Virus record (IMG/VR): IMGVR_UViG_3300035182_001001
Span: 1-43,164 of that record
DNA length: 43,164 nt
Source of the DNA: a virus
Strand: one strand, 5' to 3'
The first letter of the stretch is position 1. Each line of letters opens with the position of its first letter. The notes under the pieces are model-generated. The model made no database searches. It was not told where the DNA came from and saw nothing but the letters and a program-made list of their open reading frames with translations. The position numbers and the translations under genes were made by a program. Shown piece by piece: positions 29,758 through 38,330 of this stretch.

Positions 29758-30320
29758 AACTATATGGTGAATTGGCTAAGAAATTTGGTCGTGAGTTTAT
29801 GCTCGAAGTTGAGAGCGTGGCTGAAGCTATACGAGCCCTATCTGCCAATTTTCCAGGTTTTGAGAAAGAGCTGATGACTTCACATCTCCGAGGTGTAGAG
29901 TACGTCGTGCGAGCAGACAAACGTGATGTGTCTGAAATAGAACTGAACAACTCGTTGGCTCCACAGGAAACTATTAGGGTCGCACCTATTGCTGTAGGTC
30001 GTAAAAATGGCGGAGTATTTCAAACTATAGTTGGGGCAATCCTGGTTGTTGTAGGATTAGTGCTGACAGCGTACGGCCAAGCATGGGGTAAATACCTGAT
30101 TCAGGCCGGTATTGCACTTGTGGCTGGTGGCATTATTCAAATGCTGGTTCCAGTGCCTAAGACTGATGGCCCATCTGAACGACCTGAGAATAAGCCTAGT
30201 TCTTACTTTAATGGTGCAGTAAACACCTTGGCTCAAGGACATCCTGTTCCATTGGGATATGGTAAATTGATAGTAGGTTCTGCGGTCATCTCTGCAGGCC
30301 TTACAGTGGAAGAAGCATAA
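29745..30320 (+). CDS. Tail assembly protein I
   Basis: 191 residues. A ubiquitin-like N-domain (KVKLYGELAKKFGREFMLEVESVAEAIRALSANFPGF) is followed by two hydrophobic spans about residues 92-140 (VGAILVVVGLVLTAYG; LIQAGIALVAGGIIQMLVP), as in lambda gpI. It helps gpJ to assemble. One-base overlap with J. Confidence 0.9.
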   Translation: MRKVKLYGELAKKFGREFMLEVESVAEAIRALSANFPGFEKELMTSHLRGVEYVVRADKRDVSEIELNNSLAPQETIRVAPIAVGRKNGGVFQTIVGAILVVVGLVLTAYGQAWGKYLIQAGIALVAGGIIQMLVPVPKTDGPSERPENKPSSYFNGAVNTLAQGHPVPLGYGKLIVGSAVISAGLTVEEA

Positions 30321-33300
30321 TGCAAGATATTATCGGCTTTGGCGGTGGTGGGGGAAAAGGTGGAGGTGGCAGCGCTCGTACCCCAGTAGAATCTCCAGAT
30401 AGTCTCCGGAGTAAAGCTATTGCCCGAGTGCTTGACTTGGTTAGCGAAGGGGAAGTAGAAGGTCTAGTAAACGGCTTGCAATCAGTATATCTAGATGAAA
30501 CACCAATCCAGAATGCTGACGGCTCTTACAATTTCAATGGTGTAACCATAGAAACTCGTAATGGTACACAGTCTCAAGAATATATATCCGGTTTTCCATC
30601 TGTTGAGAACGAGGTATCTGTAGACGTTGAGATTAAAGTAACCCAACCTGTGGTTCGTAGCATTTCTAATCCGAGTGTGAACGCGGTTCGTGTTCGCATT
30701 ATGATTCCGCAATTGACATATCAAAACCCTTCTAATGGGGACCTAAGTGGTACGTCTGTTCAATATGCTATTGACACTCAACCTAATGGTGGCGCTTGGA
30801 CGGAGGTCGTCAATCAAACTATCAACGGTAAAACCACAAGTCGTTACGAGCGTCAGCATCGTGTTGAGTTGACAGGTACAAGTCCTTGGAATATTCGTAT
30901 TCGTCGCATAACTGCCGATTCGACTAATGCCAATCTCCAGAACAAGACTTATCTGGCTTCTTATACTGAGATTGTAGATGCTAAGCTACGCTATCCAAAC
31001 AGTGCTTTAGTTGCCCTGACTGTTGACTCAGCTCAGTTTAATTCTATTCCGCGTCGTGGGTACTTGATGAAGTTGTTGCGTATCAAAGTACCTACCAATT
31101 ATGACCCAGTTGCTCGTACTTACACGGGTATTTGGGATGGTTCGTTCAAGATTGCGTGGTCTGATAACCCTGCATGGTGTTTCTACGATTTATTGACTAA
31201 TGCTAGATATGGTCTTGGGGACTACCTAGATACGTCGCAAATTGACAAGTGGTCACTGTATAAAATATCCCAGTATTGTGATGGTCAGGTTCCAGATGGT
31301 TTTGGAGGCTATGAGCCACGGTTTACTTGCAACCTGTACCTTCAGACTCGTGCTGAAGCTTACAATGTGTTGCAAGATATGGCATCAATCTTTCGTGGAA
31401 TGTTGTACTGGCAACAAGGTTCTATCACAGCGGTGCAAGACGCGCCTGAAGATGCCGTGTACCTGTATACTAATGCGAATGTAATTGATGGCCTTTTTAC
31501 TTACTCTGGCTCTAGTCGTAAAGCCCGTCATACAGTAGCTCTTGTCACCTGGAATGACCCAGATGATAATTACAAAGCTAAAGTCGAATATGTAGAAGAC
31601 GTCGAAGGCATAAAGAGATTCGGCGTGGTTCAAACTGAAGTTACAGCTGTCGGCTGTACTTCTCGTGGTCAAGCAAATCGTGTCGGTAAATGGATTCTAT
31701 ATTCTGAACGGATGGAGACAGAGATTCTGGAGTTCAAGACCGGACTAGATGGTGTTGTTGCACGTCCTGGCCAAATCATTAAAGTGGCGAACCAAGACAA
31801 AGCGGGTGCTCGGATTGGTGGTCGATTATCAGCGGTGGCGAGCCCTTCATCATTTACGCTCGATGCTCCGATTACTATGGATAACGGAGCCACGTACTTC
31901 CTGTCTCTAATTACCCCTGATGGCAAAGTTGAAGAGCAACAGCTTATTTCATCTAGTGGCACGTTTTCGGTTGTCACGGCTTCTACAGCATTTTCATTCA
32001 CTCCTACTACTCAAACCATTTGGGTGATGAGGTCGTCTGTGCTCGAACCCGAATACTTTAGAGTGTTGTCAGTTGCTGAAAGTGATAATAACACTTACGC
32101 CATTACTGCGATGGCTCACGAACCTTCCAAGTTCGATGCTATAGAGAACGATCTCCAGTTAGAGTCTCGTACTACTTCTATTCTATCTTCAGTGCCTGGA
32201 GAAATTACCACAGTCAACGTTTCAGAATACTTATACATCGCTCAAGGTGACGTACGGACCATGATGACTGTTAGTTGGGTAGCTCCAACTCAAGCTGCTC
32301 GTTATTCTGTGGAGTATCGCAAGACAAATGGTGGTAATTGGGTGGTGTTACCTGATACTATGTCAACATCTTTAGATATTCAAGACGTTCAAGTCGATTC
32401 ATATCAGGTGCGAATTCGTGCAATTAGTGTTGTAGGATTATACGGGGTATATTCAGACACAGTCACATATTCGGTGCTTGGAAAGACGGCCCCACCCGCA
32501 GATGTAACGGGCTTTACCAATGTGGTGGAGCAGTTCGGTATTAGTCTGAAATGGAATAAAAACGCTGATATTGATTTGGACGCGTACGAAATTAGATACG
32601 GAGGTGCTTCGTGGGATACATCGACCTTCTTGGAAAAGGCTTACACGACTTCGTATAATTGGCAGATCAAAACTGCCGGCACATATCGTGTGTGGATTAA
32701 GGCCATAGACACAACTGGTAATTACTCTACCAATGCCGTAATCACTGATATTTCTATAGGGGTACCTGCTCAGAGTAACTTGACCGCTAGAATCAGTGGT
32801 CCAAACATTGTCCTTGAATGGACTTCTGTTGTTGGGGCTTTCTCCATAGACCACTATGAAGTTCGTCAAGGTTCTACATGGTCATCTGGCACTGATATCG
32901 CAGCACCAATGAGTAATACGCTCCAATTTGTGGCAGATTTTGGAGGCTCTCGTACATTCTGGGTCGCGGGGGTGGACGTAGCAGGAAACGTTGGTACTCC
33001 TACCTCCGTAACAGTTCAAATTCAATCCCCTAGCGTTGCAGGGGCTACAGCTGAAGTTATCGATAATAATGTTTTGCTTCGCTGGCAAGACGGCACTGCT
33101 AGTCTGCCAATTGATTATTACTCTGTTAGTAAAGGGGCGGTTTTCGAATCCGCTACAGAGGTAGGTATAATTTACTCACGATTTGCTGCGTTGTTCGAGC
33201 AAGCTGGAGGCACTTACACTTACTGGATTGTTCCAGTGGATTCTGCAGGAAACATTGGTACGCCTGCAAGTGTTAGCGCGGTAGTTAGTCAGCCACCTGA

Positions 33301-34027
33301 CTATGTGTTGCAATACGATCAGAATTCTACATTGAACGGTACTCGTTCCAATGTTCAGTTGGTGGAAGGTGCGTTACTCGCGGTGCTTCCAGACGAAACC
33401 TGGCAACAGCACTTTGCTAACCGTTCCTGGGCTACAATTCAGGCCCAAATCGATGCTGGGGATCCGTTGTATTTCCAGCCGTCAACCACCTCTGGAACGT
33501 ATGACGAAACTATTGATTATGGGGCTTTAGTTACTCAAGGTACTACTATATCCGTTACGCCGACTTACAATATTATTCGTGGCTCCGTAACTTTCACAAT
33601 TGACTTGTTTGTCAAAGCAAATATCCAAGATGCTTGGATTCAGTTCACAGGCCAGTCGTCTATTTATGCTACAAATTTCAGATATGTCCGTTTTCGTATT
33701 AACTTCACGTCAGGTTCTGGCAGTGACAATCTTATTCAGGTTACGTCGATCAGTACGAAAATGGCGGTCAAGCTTCGAAATGATAACGGTTCAGGATACG
33801 CTGTATCCACTGATGTAGGTGGCACTGTAGTCAATTTCACTCCTGGCACGTTCATCGACGTTAATTCCATTAACGTGACAGCGGCAGTTCCGGCAGGTGG
33901 ACAGCCTATAATTGCTCTGTATGATTTTGTTGATATACCTAATCCGACAAGTTTCAAGGTTTTGTTGTATGATTTGAATGGTAATCGCGTTAGCGGTTCA
34001 TTCTCATGGTCTGCTAAAGGAGTTTAA
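30320..34027 (+). CDS. Tail tip host-specificity protein J
   Basis: 1235 residues. It is the central tip protein (lambda gpJ equivalent). A Gly-rich start (IGFGGGGGKGGGGS) is followed by ARTPVESPDSLRSKAIARVLDLVSEGEVEGLVNG, the classic J pattern, and by WSDNPAWCFYDLLTNARYGLG and the phage_tail_3-like region. From about residue 640 to 1000 there are four fibronectin III-like segments (PGEITTVNVSEYL, APPADVTGFTNV, VPAQSNLTARI, SVAGATAEV). The C-terminal 250 residues are probably the fibre-binding or receptor-facing part. Confidence 0.95.
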   Translation: MQDIIGFGGGGGKGGGGSARTPVESPDSLRSKAIARVLDLVSEGEVEGLVNGLQSVYLDETPIQNADGSYNFNGVTIETRNGTQSQEYISGFPSVENEVSVDVEIKVTQPVVRSISNPSVNAVRVRIMIPQLTYQNPSNGDLSGTSVQYAIDTQPNGGAWTEVVNQTINGKTTSRYERQHRVELTGTSPWNIRIRRITADSTNANLQNKTYLASYTEIVDAKLRYPNSALVALTVDSAQFNSIPRRGYLMKLLRIKVPTNYDPVARTYTGIWDGSFKIAWSDNPAWCFYDLLTNARYGLGDYLDTSQIDKWSLYKISQYCDGQVPDGFGGYEPRFTCNLYLQTRAEAYNVLQDMASIFRGMLYWQQGSITAVQDAPEDAVYLYTNANVIDGLFTYSGSSRKARHTVALVTWNDPDDNYKAKVEYVEDVEGIKRFGVVQTEVTAVGCTSRGQANRVGKWILYSERMETEILEFKTGLDGVVARPGQIIKVANQDKAGARIGGRLSAVASPSSFTLDAPITMDNGATYFLSLITPDGKVEEQQLISSSGTFSVVTASTAFSFTPTTQTIWVMRSSVLEPEYFRVLSVAESDNNTYAITAMAHEPSKFDAIENDLQLESRTTSILSSVPGEITTVNVSEYLYIAQGDVRTMMTVSWVAPTQAARYSVEYRKTNGGNWVVLPDTMSTSLDIQDVQVDSYQVRIRAISVVGLYGVYSDTVTYSVLGKTAPPADVTGFTNVVEQFGISLKWNKNADIDLDAYEIRYGGASWDTSTFLEKAYTTSYNWQIKTAGTYRVWIKAIDTTGNYSTNAVITDISIGVPAQSNLTARISGPNIVLEWTSVVGAFSIDHYEVRQGSTWSSGTDIAAPMSNTLQFVADFGGSRTFWVAGVDVAGNVGTPTSVTVQIQSPSVAGATAEVIDNNVLLRWQDGTASLPIDYYSVSKGAVFESATEVGIIYSRFAALFEQAGGTYTYWIVPVDSAGNIGTPASVSAVVSQPPDYVLQYDQNSTLNGTRSNVQLVEGALLAVLPDETWQQHFANRSWATIQAQIDAGDPLYFQPSTTSGTYDETIDYGALVTQGTTISVTPTYNIIRGSVTFTIDLFVKANIQDAWIQFTGQSSIYATNFRYVRFRINFTSGSGSDNLIQVTSISTKMAVKLRNDNGSGYAVSTDVGGTVVNFTPGTFIDVNSINVTAAVPAGGQPIIALYDFVDIPNPTSFKVLLYDLNGNRVSGSFSWSAKGV

Positions 34028-34029
34028 TA

Positions 34030-35346
34030 ATGGCTGGAGATTTTAACAAACCTGTAGTCACTGATCCATATACATCAGTGCTACAATCTATCAACAACCT
34101 AATTTCCGATTTGGCAAAAGGTTTTGACAATACTAGTACTCTGAACATTCCTACGAATGCTATTCGCTGGTCATCTGCTAATAATCGGTTCGAGAAGTAT
34201 AACGGTTCTACATGGGCTACGTTGGCTAACACTTTCTCTATGGACGTGACATCTGTAGCAGGTAAGGTTCCCGGATTGGCTGCTAATAACCTTCTGTATC
34301 TAGACGGAAATGCCAAAGTACCTCTAAATAAATTGTACACGGGCTCCGGTAACGGATTTGATGCTGACCTATTGGATGGATTGGATAGCACCGCATTTTT
34401 GCGTCGAGATTACCTGGCCTCTCAAAGTTTGACTGATGCCAACTCAGCCGTAGATACAGGGGCTCGAGTATCTTATATAGCTGGTGCTAATAAGCCTACA
34501 GGTACTGATCATGGATTGCTAACCATGGCCTATTCTACTAGTCTAGCCATTCAACTAGCTGGAGATTGGAGAACTAATGAGTGGTATGTCCGTAATGAAA
34601 ACTCCTCAGTTTGGGGCGCCTGGGCCAGACTATTGCACTCAGTAAATGCGCCTGGAGCTCTAAATGCTCAAGCTGCAGGCGTGTACGGGGGTATGAATAT
34701 CACTGGGGCTAATGGAGGTTTTGCTGGATTTCAGTTCAACTCAACGTCCCGCTACTTCTTGAGCTCCGGTGGTCAGACTGGCGAATATGATACTGGGTCT
34801 AATACATGGCAATGGCGTTGGGATAACGGTACTTTGTCGTTCGGCACTGTACCTTGGGCTCGCTTGAGTGGCGTTCCAGCCATGAACTATTTAGCTTTGA
34901 CTGGTGGAGGCTTAACAGGTATGGTTTCTACGGCTGGAAACACTCAGCCGTTCAACTCAGCTAACGATCAGACTATATCTGTTCGTAGTTCTGGTACAGG
35001 AACCGCAGCTGTTATGTCGTTTAATCGCGTAGGTGCTTACGCCATCAACGTGGGTCTGGACACGGACAACGTCTTCAAAATAGGCGGCTGGTCTGCCACA
35101 TCTGCCGTATTCCAGTTGAATATGTCAGGTCAACTTTGGACTTCGAATTATGGCTGGTTACACGATTACTTCACGAGGACTGTTAATGCTGGTAACGGGT
35201 TGACAGGCGGTGGGTCTGGCTCTACTATTACAATCAGTCATCCTGCATACACTGCCATGAGTAGCCCTGCCAACATTCAAGTGGATGCTAAGGGTCATGT
35301 AACTAACTGTAACTGTAACTGTACCAGCAACTGCAACTGTAGCTAA
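34030..35346 (+). CDS. Tail fibre with cysteine-rich C-terminal tip
   Basis: 438 residues. The N-terminal part (FNKPVVTDPYTSVLQSINNLI) and the middle (DADLLDGLDSTAFLRRDYL; VRNENSSVWGAWARLL) are typical for tail fibres. A regular C-terminal beta part ends in IQVDAKGHVT, where many fibres end. Here it continues into a 14-residue tail TNCNCNCTSNCNCS. These five cysteines (C427, C429, C431, C435, C437) are the only ones in the protein. The product is probably the substrate of the radical SAM enzyme encoded two genes later; this is inference from position and sequence. The fibre itself is confident. Confidence 0.9.
   Translation: MAGDFNKPVVTDPYTSVLQSINNLISDLAKGFDNTSTLNIPTNAIRWSSANNRFEKYNGSTWATLANTFSMDVTSVAGKVPGLAANNLLYLDGNAKVPLNKLYTGSGNGFDADLLDGLDSTAFLRRDYLASQSLTDANSAVDTGARVSYIAGANKPTGTDHGLLTMAYSTSLAIQLAGDWRTNEWYVRNENSSVWGAWARLLHSVNAPGALNAQAAGVYGGMNITGANGGFAGFQFNSTSRYFLSSGGQTGEYDTGSNTWQWRWDNGTLSFGTVPWARLSGVPAMNYLALTGGGLTGMVSTAGNTQPFNSANDQTISVRSSGTGTAAVMSFNRVGAYAINVGLDTDNVFKIGGWSATSAVFQLNMSGQLWTSNYGWLHDYFTRTVNAGNGLTGGGSGSTITISHPAYTAMSSPANIQVDAKGHVTNCNCNCTSNCNCS
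35305..35343 (+). other. Asn-Cys repeat motif at the tail fibre tip, putative modification site
   Basis: Codons AAC TGT three times, then ACC AGC, AAC TGC, AAC TGT and AGC before TAA. The hexanucleotide AACTGT repeat could grow or shrink by slippage in steps of one Asn-Cys unit. Five Cys in 13 residues are more than can be explained by structure of an ordinary fibre. Confidence 0.7.
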
Positions 35347-35367
35347 TAAGCTGGCAAGGAGAAGAGA

Positions 35368-36078
35368 ATGATAATAGCAAAAGGCGCTTGTTCAACACAA
35401 CGTGATGAGACTACTTATCCAATGTTCATCATCAGGGAGGATACTGAAAAATTTATAGTTAAACGCGTCAATACTGGTCATGACATAGGGTCTCAAGAAA
35501 TCATTAAATCAGATATACCCGATAGCGGGCGCTTGGTATTTTTCTGGTCTCACTATGGTTTAGGACTAATACCAGCACCTGATTATGACGATTCCAGAGA
35601 GGTTAATGCATTCTATATGCATAAATATGGATGTCAGGAAGGCGCCCCTATTACTGTAGCACGTAGCGGTGATATATCCGTATTGATTTGTACGGCATTT
35701 TGTTATGCAGAAACCGATTTTGTAGTTAGACAAATACCAGGTCCGTCTATCGACCTTGTCGATGAATTCATACCTGGATTTTCTAAAGCTCCTGGGGCCT
35801 CTAAAATTCGCGCAAAAATGGAGCTAATGCGAAGTGTGAACTTATTAGACTCAATTGCGGCTTTGGAAAAACAAATAGACCTTTTGACAGCTTTAGTGCT
35901 TGAACTAGCCATAGCTCAACCTGAAAATGAACAACCTAAATTGATATCGAAAATATCAGATTTAGTCAACGGCCCAACGTCTGTATCTGATTTTGATAAG
36001 ACATTGTCGGATGTCATTACATACAAATCTCGTATTCGTGCATTGCAAGCTCAATATTTTAAGGACCGAAATGGCTAA
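35368..36078 (+). CDS. Unknown protein between fibre and radical SAM genes
   Basis: 236 residues, AAGGAG ribosome site. The N-domain (1-115) is beta-rich with four Cys (C8, C88, C107, C111). The middle (VVRQIPGPSIDLVDEFIPGF) is Pro/Gly rich and the C-terminal 100 residues are helical, with a coiled-coil-like part (LLDSIAALEKQIDLLTALVLEL). Its end overlaps the maturase start by eight bases, so the two are coupled. It could be a partner that brings the fibre to the maturase, a fibre chaperone, or another virion protein. No family recognised. Confidence 0.65.
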   Translation: MIIAKGACSTQRDETTYPMFIIREDTEKFIVKRVNTGHDIGSQEIIKSDIPDSGRLVFFWSHYGLGLIPAPDYDDSREVNAFYMHKYGCQEGAPITVARSGDISVLICTAFCYAETDFVVRQIPGPSIDLVDEFIPGFSKAPGASKIRAKMELMRSVNLLDSIAALEKQIDLLTALVLELAIAQPENEQPKLISKISDLVNGPTSVSDFDKTLSDVITYKSRIRALQAQYFKDRNG

Positions 36079-37372
36079 ATTCAAAATTCACTGTCACGAC
36101 GGTAAAGTGCTCGACTATGACAACTCTCTGTCTACGTTGAGCTGCTATGGCAAACTAATTCGTGCTGAAAAGTTTATGGACTTCGACCACGATACGTCCA
36201 AGTCGAATGATTTGTCAGTTGTCAAGATTCAACTTGGTCTGAACTGCAACTATTCCTGCGACTATTGCAATCAACGATTTGTTCCACATGCTGAGCAAAC
36301 TAACCCTGACAGTGTTCAGCCGTTCCTAGACAAATTACCTAACTGGCTCAAGCCATCTTCACAAGTTAGATTCGAGTTCTGGGGCGGAGAGCCATTAGTG
36401 TATTGGAAAACTCTCAAGCCTTTGGCTGAAGCGCTTCGTAAGTTGTACCCATACTGCCGCATGAGCCTCATTACCAATGGCTCTTTGCTTGACATAGAGA
36501 AGAATGAGTGGATTGATAAGATAGGTCTTGGCATCTCCATCAGCCACGACGGTCCTGGTCAACATGTTCGTGGTCCAGATCCGTTGAACGACCTAATCAC
36601 ACGCGACGCCATACTTGACCTGTATTCTCGACTAGCACCTCAAGGTCGTATTTCATTCGGGTCTATGGTCAATCGCTGGAATACTAGTCGTGCAGCCATT
36701 CAAGAGTTTTTTGTCAAGTTGACAGGGGACAAAAATGTATGTATCGGAGAGGGGGCGTTCATCGACCCATATGATGAAGGTGGTAAATCATCATCGATTC
36801 AATCTTATGACGAAGCTATTGCCTTTCGTCGTCAAGCTCTCAGCGAGCTACGTCAGGGCAAAATTACTAACTTCGACATTGCGTCTAGCAAGATTCAAGG
36901 ATTTATTCGGTCAATTGAGACTGCACGCCCTGCTTCTGCTCTCGGTCAGAAGTGTGGCATGGACCGTAAGAACCAGATTGCAGTGGACTTGAATGGTGAT
37001 GTGTTGACATGCCAAAATGTATCGTCAGTTGCCACTGCGCCTAATGGTAAATCTCACAAGATTGGCTCAGTATATGATTTTGAGTCTATCAAGCTCGATA
37101 CAACTACTCACTGGTCGCAACGCAAAGAGTGCGGAAACTGCCCTGTATTGCAGCTTTGCCAAGGCTCTTGCATGTTTTTGCAAGACGATATGTTTGAACT
37201 AGGTTGCAACAATAGCTTCAACGACAACATTGTGTTTTTCGCAGCTGCAATCGAATACATGACCGGCTCGCTACCTGTCATAATTGAAGGTCCTCAGAGG
37301 TCTGACAGAGTCGACATCTGGGGTTCGACTGTAAAACCCCGCAAGATAATTGATATAAAGGAGATTAAATAA
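36071..37372 (+). CDS. Radical SAM/SPASM peptide maturase
   Basis: 433 residues from ATG 36071, with AAGGA five bases upstream; an earlier ATG in frame lies inside the previous gene. The radical SAM cluster motif is CNYSCDYC (C59, C63, C66), then FWGGEPL (103-109), TNG (135-137) and SISHDGP (156-162). The SPASM domain is complete: C295, G309, C314 (CX13GX4C), then C354, C357, C363, C367 (CX2CX5CX3C) and C379. Such enzymes with two auxiliary clusters modify ribosomal peptides: thioether or carbon-carbon cross-links, epimerisation and others. No such enzyme belongs to a usual tail module. The natural candidate substrate is the Cys-rich fibre tip upstream. The family call is strong; the substrate is inferred. 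Confidence 0.95.
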   Translation: MAKFKIHCHDGKVLDYDNSLSTLSCYGKLIRAEKFMDFDHDTSKSNDLSVVKIQLGLNCNYSCDYCNQRFVPHAEQTNPDSVQPFLDKLPNWLKPSSQVRFEFWGGEPLVYWKTLKPLAEALRKLYPYCRMSLITNGSLLDIEKNEWIDKIGLGISISHDGPGQHVRGPDPLNDLITRDAILDLYSRLAPQGRISFGSMVNRWNTSRAAIQEFFVKLTGDKNVCIGEGAFIDPYDEGGKSSSIQSYDEAIAFRRQALSELRQGKITNFDIASSKIQGFIRSIETARPASALGQKCGMDRKNQIAVDLNGDVLTCQNVSSVATAPNGKSHKIGSVYDFESIKLDTTTHWSQRKECGNCPVLQLCQGSCMFLQDDMFELGCNNSFNDNIVFFAAAIEYMTGSLPVIIEGPQRSDRVDIWGSTVKPRKIIDIKEIK

Positions 37373-37899
37373 TGGACGACAACGTAGTGGTTTATGGAGT
37401 CGACAATCAAGGTAATTACCTTGGTTTGGTCGCCGTAGGTACCCCATTCAAGGAGGTTCTTGGACCCCCTCCATCAAGTGACTGGATGTGGGATTTCAGT
37501 GGTAATACTTGGATTCGCAAAGTTTCACTTGATGCTATAAAGGAGCAAGCTGCGATCGATATAGACAATCAATCAGGTTTGACTCGATCTAAGTATATAA
37601 CGGATGTTCCTGGACAAGCCGCGACGTACTTGCTTAAGGCCGATCAGGCTACAAAGTACAAAGATGCCAACTATCAAGGTGATGTTCCTGGATTGGTACA
37701 ATCTGAAGCAACAGCTCGTGGAATTTCTGCGCAGCTAGCTGCAGACGTAATTATCACTGAGCAAAATCAGTGGATAGCTTTGGCTACGATGGTAGAGACT
37801 GTTCGTCGCCTTGGCAAGGAGAATGTGAAGAAAGCTACGTCTCCTCAAGAGGTGGAAGATATTCGCCTTCAAACAGTAGACCAGTTGAAAGCGATTTAA
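37372..37899 (+). CDS. Tail fibre assembly-like protein
   Basis: 175 residues. The first 50 residues (YGVDNQGNYLGL...GPPPSSDWMWDFSGNTWIRKV) and the following helical region (YITDVPGQAATYLLKADQATKYKD, later QWIALATMVETVRRLGK) look like the small proteins that follow tail fibre genes and act as assembly chaperones (DUF4376-like). Its ATG overlaps the maturase stop as TAATG, so the maturase is translated within the fibre operon. Confidence 0.7.
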   Translation: MDDNVVVYGVDNQGNYLGLVAVGTPFKEVLGPPPSSDWMWDFSGNTWIRKVSLDAIKEQAAIDIDNQSGLTRSKYITDVPGQAATYLLKADQATKYKDANYQGDVPGLVQSEATARGISAQLAADVIITEQNQWIALATMVETVRRLGKENVKKATSPQEVEDIRLQTVDQLKAI

Positions 37900-37901
37900 T
37901 C

Positions 37902-38330
37902 ATGGTAACTATTCAGTTTTCCGCGTCACCTGATTATGGTTCGTACATTATCCGTGCATTCACGTGGAGTGACTTCAGCCATATCGATGTAGTACTGCCT
38001 AATGGCAAACTGTTCGGAGCGCTCACTAAATCTGGGGTATGTGAACATGAGCCTTATCGCTACTCTGCTGTTAGACGTTTTCAGGTCGAAGTTGCCGACG
38101 AGGCCAAACTGTTTGAAATTCTGAAAACCCAAGAGGGCAAGCCATATGATTGGGCTGGTATCATTGGTTTTGGACTCCACCGTAATTGGGAGGATGACGA
38201 CAAGTGGTTCTGCAGTGAATTGGTAGCTTGGGCTTTCAAACAAGCTGGTACACCTTTACTCAACGCAGACGATGCTTTCCGAATAACTCCTCGGGACTTG
38301 CTATTATCTCCACTTTTGAAACCTATGTAA
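37902..38330 (+). CDS. Permuted papain-like peptidase (YiiX/NlpC-P60 type)
   Basis: 142 residues from ATG 37902. His comes before Cys: FSHIDVV (H27) and WFCSELVAWAF (C104), the circularly permuted NlpC/P60 arrangement of YiiX-like amidases. It may cut peptidoglycan, process a lipid or peptide, or assist DNA entry. It stands between fibre and lysis genes, so either a virion or a lysis role is possible. Confidence 0.8.
   Translation: MVTIQFSASPDYGSYIIRAFTWSDFSHIDVVLPNGKLFGALTKSGVCEHEPYRYSAVRRFQVEVADEAKLFEILKTQEGKPYDWAGIIGFGLHRNWEDDDKWFCSELVAWAFKQAGTPLLNADDAFRITPRDLLLSPLLKPM

Follow-up and report, generated by a model that had tools for sequence, protein, structure and literature searches.

Why should a phage tail fibre end in a run of Asn and Cys, and why should a radical SAM/SPASM enzyme be encoded two genes behind it? 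The question arises from a virus sequence of 43,164 bases (IMG/VR virus record IMGVR_UViG_3300035182_001001, positions 1 to 43,164), the whole of which we call the window. On its plus strand, a lambda-J-like central tail fibre / host specificity protein (30320–34027; phrog_31 'central tail fiber J', E=0; phrog_1727, full length) lies directly upstream of four tightly packed genes of the same orientation. The first of these (34030–35346) encodes a tail fibre of 438 aa, which matches phrog_4900 (tail protein, E=1e-8) and carries the conserved element WTSNYGWLHDYF. The second (35368–36078; gene 2) encodes a 236-aa partner protein; the third (36071–37372), the 433-aa radical SAM/SPASM enzyme, a predicted fibre-tail maturase on the evidence of profile matches, an AF2 model and PDB folds; and the fourth (37372–37899), a 175-aa protein. 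The enzyme's ATG at 36071 overlaps the end of gene 2 (36078), and the 175-aa gene starts inside the enzyme's stop codon (37372). A TTG at 35993, upstream of this ATG and also listed as a start for the enzyme, is unlikely to be used. The 175-aa product matches phrog_8983 (E=3.6e-17; function not named) and, weakly, phrog_8258 (tail fiber assembly, E=0.003), and is possibly related to fibre assembly. A permuted papain-like (YaeF/YiiX, C92) protein, with a weak Pfam match, is encoded at 37902–38330, between the fibre operon and the endolysin.

The fibre contains five Cys in total, at positions 427, 429, 431, 435 and 437 of its 438 residues, hence all within the last 12 (TNCNCNCTSNCNCS, then the stop). 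Read directly from the ORF, its C-terminus is ...VDAKGHVTNCNCNCTSNCNCS, that is, ...GHVTNCNCNCTSNCNCS. The segment NCNCNCTSNCNCS (35305–35343, plus strand) is the predicted maturase substrate, both from this reading and from the association of such tails with the enzyme across the class. The WTSNYGWLHDYF element lies about 60 residues before the C-terminus, and a YGWLHDYF element is common to the relatives. Among the matches listed, 78 distinct tails have N (183), A (47), D (45) or R (10) at X of CXC, and the first C is preceded by N in 73 of the 78. In the relatives, the distal fibre also has Asn-Cys dipeptides at scattered positions upstream of the tail, a feature that the first reading of this locus had not anticipated. 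Asn precedes 71% of the Cys outside runs in these fibres (284/402, among the matches listed), where the background frequency of Asn is 8%. Comparison within three sets of homologous tails shows only synonymous TGC/TGT changes at Cys codons, but replacement of N by A or D. From these patterns, the Asn-Cys unit seems to be under selection.

The enzyme belongs to the radical SAM/SPASM superfamily by motif, spacing and fold. Its radical SAM triad CxxxCxxC is formed by C59, C63 and C66, and the canonical seven-Cys SPASM set follows as C295-x13-G-x4-C314, C354-x2-C357-x5-C363-x3-C367 and C379; all are invariant in 50 relatives. Scores exceed the cut-offs of NCBIfam TIGR04085 for SPASM (35.4 bits versus 27) and Pfam PF04055 for Radical_SAM (30.5 versus 29.5). 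The sequence-only reading had described five Cys in Asn-Cys repeats near the fibre C-terminus and, in one tightly coupled operon, an intervening protein and a complete SPASM enzyme with seven auxiliary Cys; coordinates, profile scores and residue invariance bear out this description. In the AF2 model (pLDDT 92.7), the best PDB folds are CteB, anSMEcpe, ChlB, TigE, SuiB and SkfB, the nearest being the thioether-forming CteB and anSME. All 50 enzymes tested match the model of the PapB-family ranthipeptide maturases. The window enzyme, for which no named family fits better, nevertheless scores 66.9 bits against the PapB equivalog cut-off of 340. Every other NCBIfam equivalog cut-off is likewise far above its score, so the chemistry cannot be read from the family. 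The enzyme model shows no evident RRE-like domain, residues 1–48 forming three to four strands, and there is no PqqD-like Pfam match.

What, then, might the enzyme make? C-beta thioethers have been published between Cys and Asn in NxxcA and between Cys and Asp in freyrasin (PMC8326336), which makes a Cys to Asn/Asp thioether plausible for an (N/D/A)C repeat. On the other hand, Ala occupies 15% of X positions among the matches listed, and Ala is no acceptor in the C-beta thioethers of that work. We regard a thioether product as about an even call. One alternative is that some other radical chemistry acts on the tail, either conversion of Cys to formylglycine, as by anSME, which would leave the tip with reactive aldehydes, or epimerization, giving a D/L ribbon. 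In its favour, the letter that never varies in the tail is Cys, anSMEcpe is among the nearest folds, and a sulfatase-maturase model matches 49/50 enzymes, with the window enzyme below its cut-off. However, anSME targets the motif CxPxR, which is absent from the tails, and the known epimerases of the polytheonamide type lack a full SPASM domain. Moreover, oxidation of Cys alone would not need Asn before Cys, yet the Asn is preserved. We therefore consider this alternative unlikely.

That the tail is the substrate at all depends on how faithfully tail and enzyme keep company, and we approached this from the motif, from the enzyme and from the fibre. Starting from the motif, we searched viral contigs with a DNA pattern for CNCNCNC and kept ORFs that are 60 aa or longer and whose last 35 residues include the tail. 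This gave at least 50 in-frame ORFs. A radical SAM gene lies downstream on the same strand within 5 kb in 40/40 testable cases among the matches listed; the other 10 of 50 ORFs run out of DNA (<3.2 kb downstream). In a few of the 40 (L171, L178, L188, L255 and L267), the radical SAM gene is more distant and not of the window enzyme's exact family. Where the pattern falls outside the ORF frame, none of 62 loci has a radical SAM gene (among the matches listed). This control rules out a chance or low-complexity origin of the tail, as does the synonymous-only variation of its Cys codons. The survey of NC-tailed fibres for a nearby SPASM gene is the check that the sequence-only reading had proposed.

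Starting from the enzyme, scans of viral contigs (at least 543 relatives) and genome contigs yielded 160 loci among the matches listed. Within the 116 that have at least 3.4 kb of upstream sequence, a tail is encoded on the same strand as a literal C-terminus in 90 and ahead of a Hint domain in 10 (again among the matches listed). Three more proved to be tailed: L108, where the tail is followed by an acidic linker; L061, where the tail ORF is cut by the contig start, with a gap of about 6 kb; and L158, with a degenerate repeat and a broken enzyme. The remaining 13 are tailless, and comprise outgroup relatives (L133, L143, L149, L150, L152, L156), truncated or rearranged enzymes (L049, L130, L151, L154, L163) and two intact genes (L099, L136). 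With truncated tailless genes set aside, the tail is present in about 103 of 105 in-clade loci among the matches listed. Downstream of the enzyme, by comparison, such an ORF occurs in only 7/119 loci, all resembling out-of-frame chance (among the matches listed). One caveat is that the loci are interrelated, so that these counts overstate independence; at 75% identity, the tailed loci form 37 clusters and the tailless loci 6 (among the matches listed), one of the six being L061, later resolved as tailed. Separately, the outgroup enzymes of L133, L143 and L149 are preceded by a protein of 766–813 aa ending in IHPCT, another possible enzyme-substrate pair, and a tandem pair of radical SAM genes lies downstream of the tail protein in L116, L117, L214 and L215.

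Starting from the fibre, we collected fibres with the YGWLHDYF element, counting as testable those with at least 3.2 kb downstream. Tailed fibres have the enzyme in 59/61 testable cases. In the two exceptions (L295, L325), the downstream DNA is probably too short; the end of L325 resembles that of L061 with its gap of about 6 kb. L321, like L158, combines a degenerate tail with a broken enzyme. Tailless fibres, a small sample, have the enzyme in 0/3 testable cases and 0/7 overall. The enzyme thus goes with tailed and not with tailless fibres, which indicates that the same fibre module takes the enzyme only when it has the tail. Two patterns had been named beforehand as speaking against the idea, Cys-tailed fibres generally without a maturase and the maturase conserved beside other substrates; neither was borne out.

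As judged from sequence, then, an Asn-Cys-tailed fibre next to a radical SAM/SPASM enzyme is found in hundreds of bacterial viruses, and the pairing is far beyond chance. These results bear on a further alternative, in which the CxC tail is a metal-binding tip (Fe, Zn or Cu in the trimer) and the enzyme acts elsewhere. Iron binding through HxH is known or predicted for T4 gp37 and other fibres (PMC11705849). The geometry of CxC in a trimer would be similar. Like the HxH iron needle of gp37, the window tail repeats residues of metal or thiol type at a fibre's distal end. It differs in being built of Cys, with no His and hence no HxH, and in having a dedicated radical enzyme. Furthermore, a metal tip leaves unexplained why the enzyme tracks the tail and not the fibre body, and why it accompanies the tail at every testable motif-first locus. 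We consider this reading distinctly improbable. Finally, because phage tail ends are a known site for extra genes, the enzyme might be unrelated cargo (a moron) located in the tail module by chance, but we reject this as very improbable, since it is contradicted by all three tests and by the recurrence of the linkage on changing fibre bodies and in the tail-plus-Hint form.

The Hint variants were also unforeseen in the first reading. In ten loci (among the matches listed), the tail runs directly up to Cys1 of an intein-like (Hint) domain. The nearest named relatives of the window, Achromobacter phages JWF and 2-1, are of this type, with Hom_end_hint above its cut-off in their fibres. They encode fibre, gene-2 homologue and enzyme in the same order as the window, and their enzymes are 47–49% identical to the window enzyme over the full length (51% in the tblastn match). 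The fibre of these phages has the sequence ..QNCNCDCNCNCS|CFPAGTMVLMADG.., which leads on into the Hint domain, whereas the NC tail of the window is the literal C-terminus and ends in NCNCS. The annotated records of JWF and 2-1 draw no connection between tail and enzyme. An alignment of Hint domains from 11 loci shows the block A Cys1 and a conserved block B His. No C-terminal His-Asn splice junction was seen in the relatives' Hint domains, so N-terminal cleavage would be expected; by analogy with the Hint family, a cut at the Hint Cys would leave the JWF/2-1 tail ending in CNCS. On the enzyme tree, the Hint state and the literal C-terminus switch at least six times, which suggests that the exposed tail is what is kept. 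A Hint match in phiCbK found in the literature is a terminase intein, and is unrelated.

The other operon genes are less constant. Gene 2 encodes a variable N-terminal part and a C-terminal helical/coiled-coil region (DSIAALEKQIDLLT); its AF2 model has helices in the C-terminal part and a pLDDT of only 56.6, too poor for use of the fold or for judging whether it holds an RRE. Its family is common to JWF, 2-1 and 12 other loci, and gene 2 is rejected as a universal partner because these 14 are the only ones among the matches listed; the rest have an Ig-like (Big_1/Invasin-like) protein or none. The lack of a single conserved gene-2 family across operons counts against the cassette explanation proposed below. 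The Ig-like protein, of 250–315 aa, is present in 76/111 loci among the matches listed. Many relatives also carry, between tail and enzyme, 2OG-Fe(II)-oxygenase-like genes (Pfam PF13759/PF13640, among 77 representatives), which the first reading had not included; purpose-built HMMs, which may be generous, find such a gene in 78/111 loci among the matches listed. A role of these oxygenases as collagen prolyl hydroxylases finds no support, as 70 of 84 loci with a 2OG-like gene have no Gly-X-Y run. Neither a 2OG oxygenase gene nor the Ig-like protein of the relatives is present in the window.

The idea that a long fibre carries the tail is not general. That Cys tail and SPASM enzyme form a unit, with the tail as probable substrate, is supported from whichever side the search begins and strengthened by the Hint variants. 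Against it, some tails are on proteins of 67–133 aa, which are only putative virion components. Several such loci deserve mention in their own right. Viral contigs L178 (11423–11662), L188 (2432–2635) and L267 (6394–6597) encode proteins of 67–79 aa ending in HTHxFxDDYST(A/N)CNCNCNC.. and adjoining up to four different radical SAM genes, the same tail in a second, more distant enzyme context. In L171 (2383–3116) and L255 (3956–4318), proteins of 120–123 aa have long CQxCQ repeats and then a CDCNC tail, with an adjoining radical SAM gene (E ~1e-38). In L199 (758–2084), three consecutive small Cys-repeat proteins precede one radical SAM gene. Thalassobacter stenotrophicus has three copies in one genome (L131, L132, L155) of a cassette of small NC-tailed protein, 2OG-like gene and radical SAM gene. 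Next to the similar L134 are fibres of phage type, one of which has collagen repeats and an S74 chaperone, and putative surface-polysaccharide genes follow downstream. Might this cassette be a prophage remnant, or the fibre locus of a gene transfer agent?

Taken as a whole, these observations point to a tail-fibre tip modification cassette, which we think likely and which would likely make Cys-based cross-links; that the tail is the enzyme's substrate is, on present associations, highly probable. Since the fibres end in an Asn-Cys repeat beside a kind of enzyme that modifies such peptides, it is probable that the virus remodels this tip, which may be its point of contact with the host. We propose that the SPASM enzyme acts on the exposed repeat at the end of the fibre encoded two genes upstream. 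Its auxiliary [4Fe-4S] clusters would probably bind Cys thiolates, and the most likely outcome would be Cys-derived thioether cross-links to Asn, Asp or Ala residues, so that a fibre ordinary in other respects would end in a compact tip locked by covalent bonds. The tail would be exposed as the literal C-terminus in the window, or by a self-cleaving Hint domain directly behind it in relatives. It would stay on the fibre, and the Hint variants would lose the C-terminal side rather than a leader. In relatives, the 2OG/Fe(II)-oxygenase-like gene product could modify the tip further; the window phage has no such gene. We put a role of the tip, once modified, in either adsorption or stability at about even odds.

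The linkage of tail and enzyme suggests that the tail is a RiPP precursor: a ribosomal precursor candidate is genetically linked to a tailoring enzyme. PapB (freyrasin), NxxcB and CteB (thermocellin) similarly have a radical SAM core and SPASM auxiliary-cluster Cys, with a Cys-rich substrate encoded alongside; PapB is the best family match of the window enzyme and CteB its best PDB fold. Unlike the ranthipeptide maturases, however, the window enzyme is below every equivalog cut-off and has no evident RRE; where they act on a short precursor peptide, it is predicted to act on the C-terminal end of a structural protein of a phage, and the repeat is (N/D/A)-C with a spacing of one. SPASM-type enzymes that modify a large protein instead of a peptide are exemplified by anSME (anaerobic sulfatase maturase) and QhpD. 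The window enzyme has a fold similar to that of anSME, and the protein on which it is predicted to act is a phage fibre.

Known targets of radical SAM/SPASM tailoring are natural-product peptides and a few enzymes. For phage virion proteins, and for such a fibre-tip system, we found no report in the open-access literature (PMC); the sequence-only reading, too, took RiPP-like modification of a virion protein to be undescribed. The kind of enzyme is known; the substrate class and the place are, as far as we have found, new. We think it probable that a widespread family of phages uses a RiPP-like cassette, often with 2OG oxygenases, to modify a virion protein covalently at its distal tip; the whole fibre would be the carrier and Asn-Cys the site code. 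If this is true, phage host-recognition tips bear chemistry that neither the genetic code nor structure prediction of fibres reveals, and recombinant fibres produced without the maturase would miss the true tip. For hundreds of phage radical SAM genes there would be a role that can be tested, through an obvious substrate and a mass signature, and the maturation of phage receptor-binding proteins would have a new layer.
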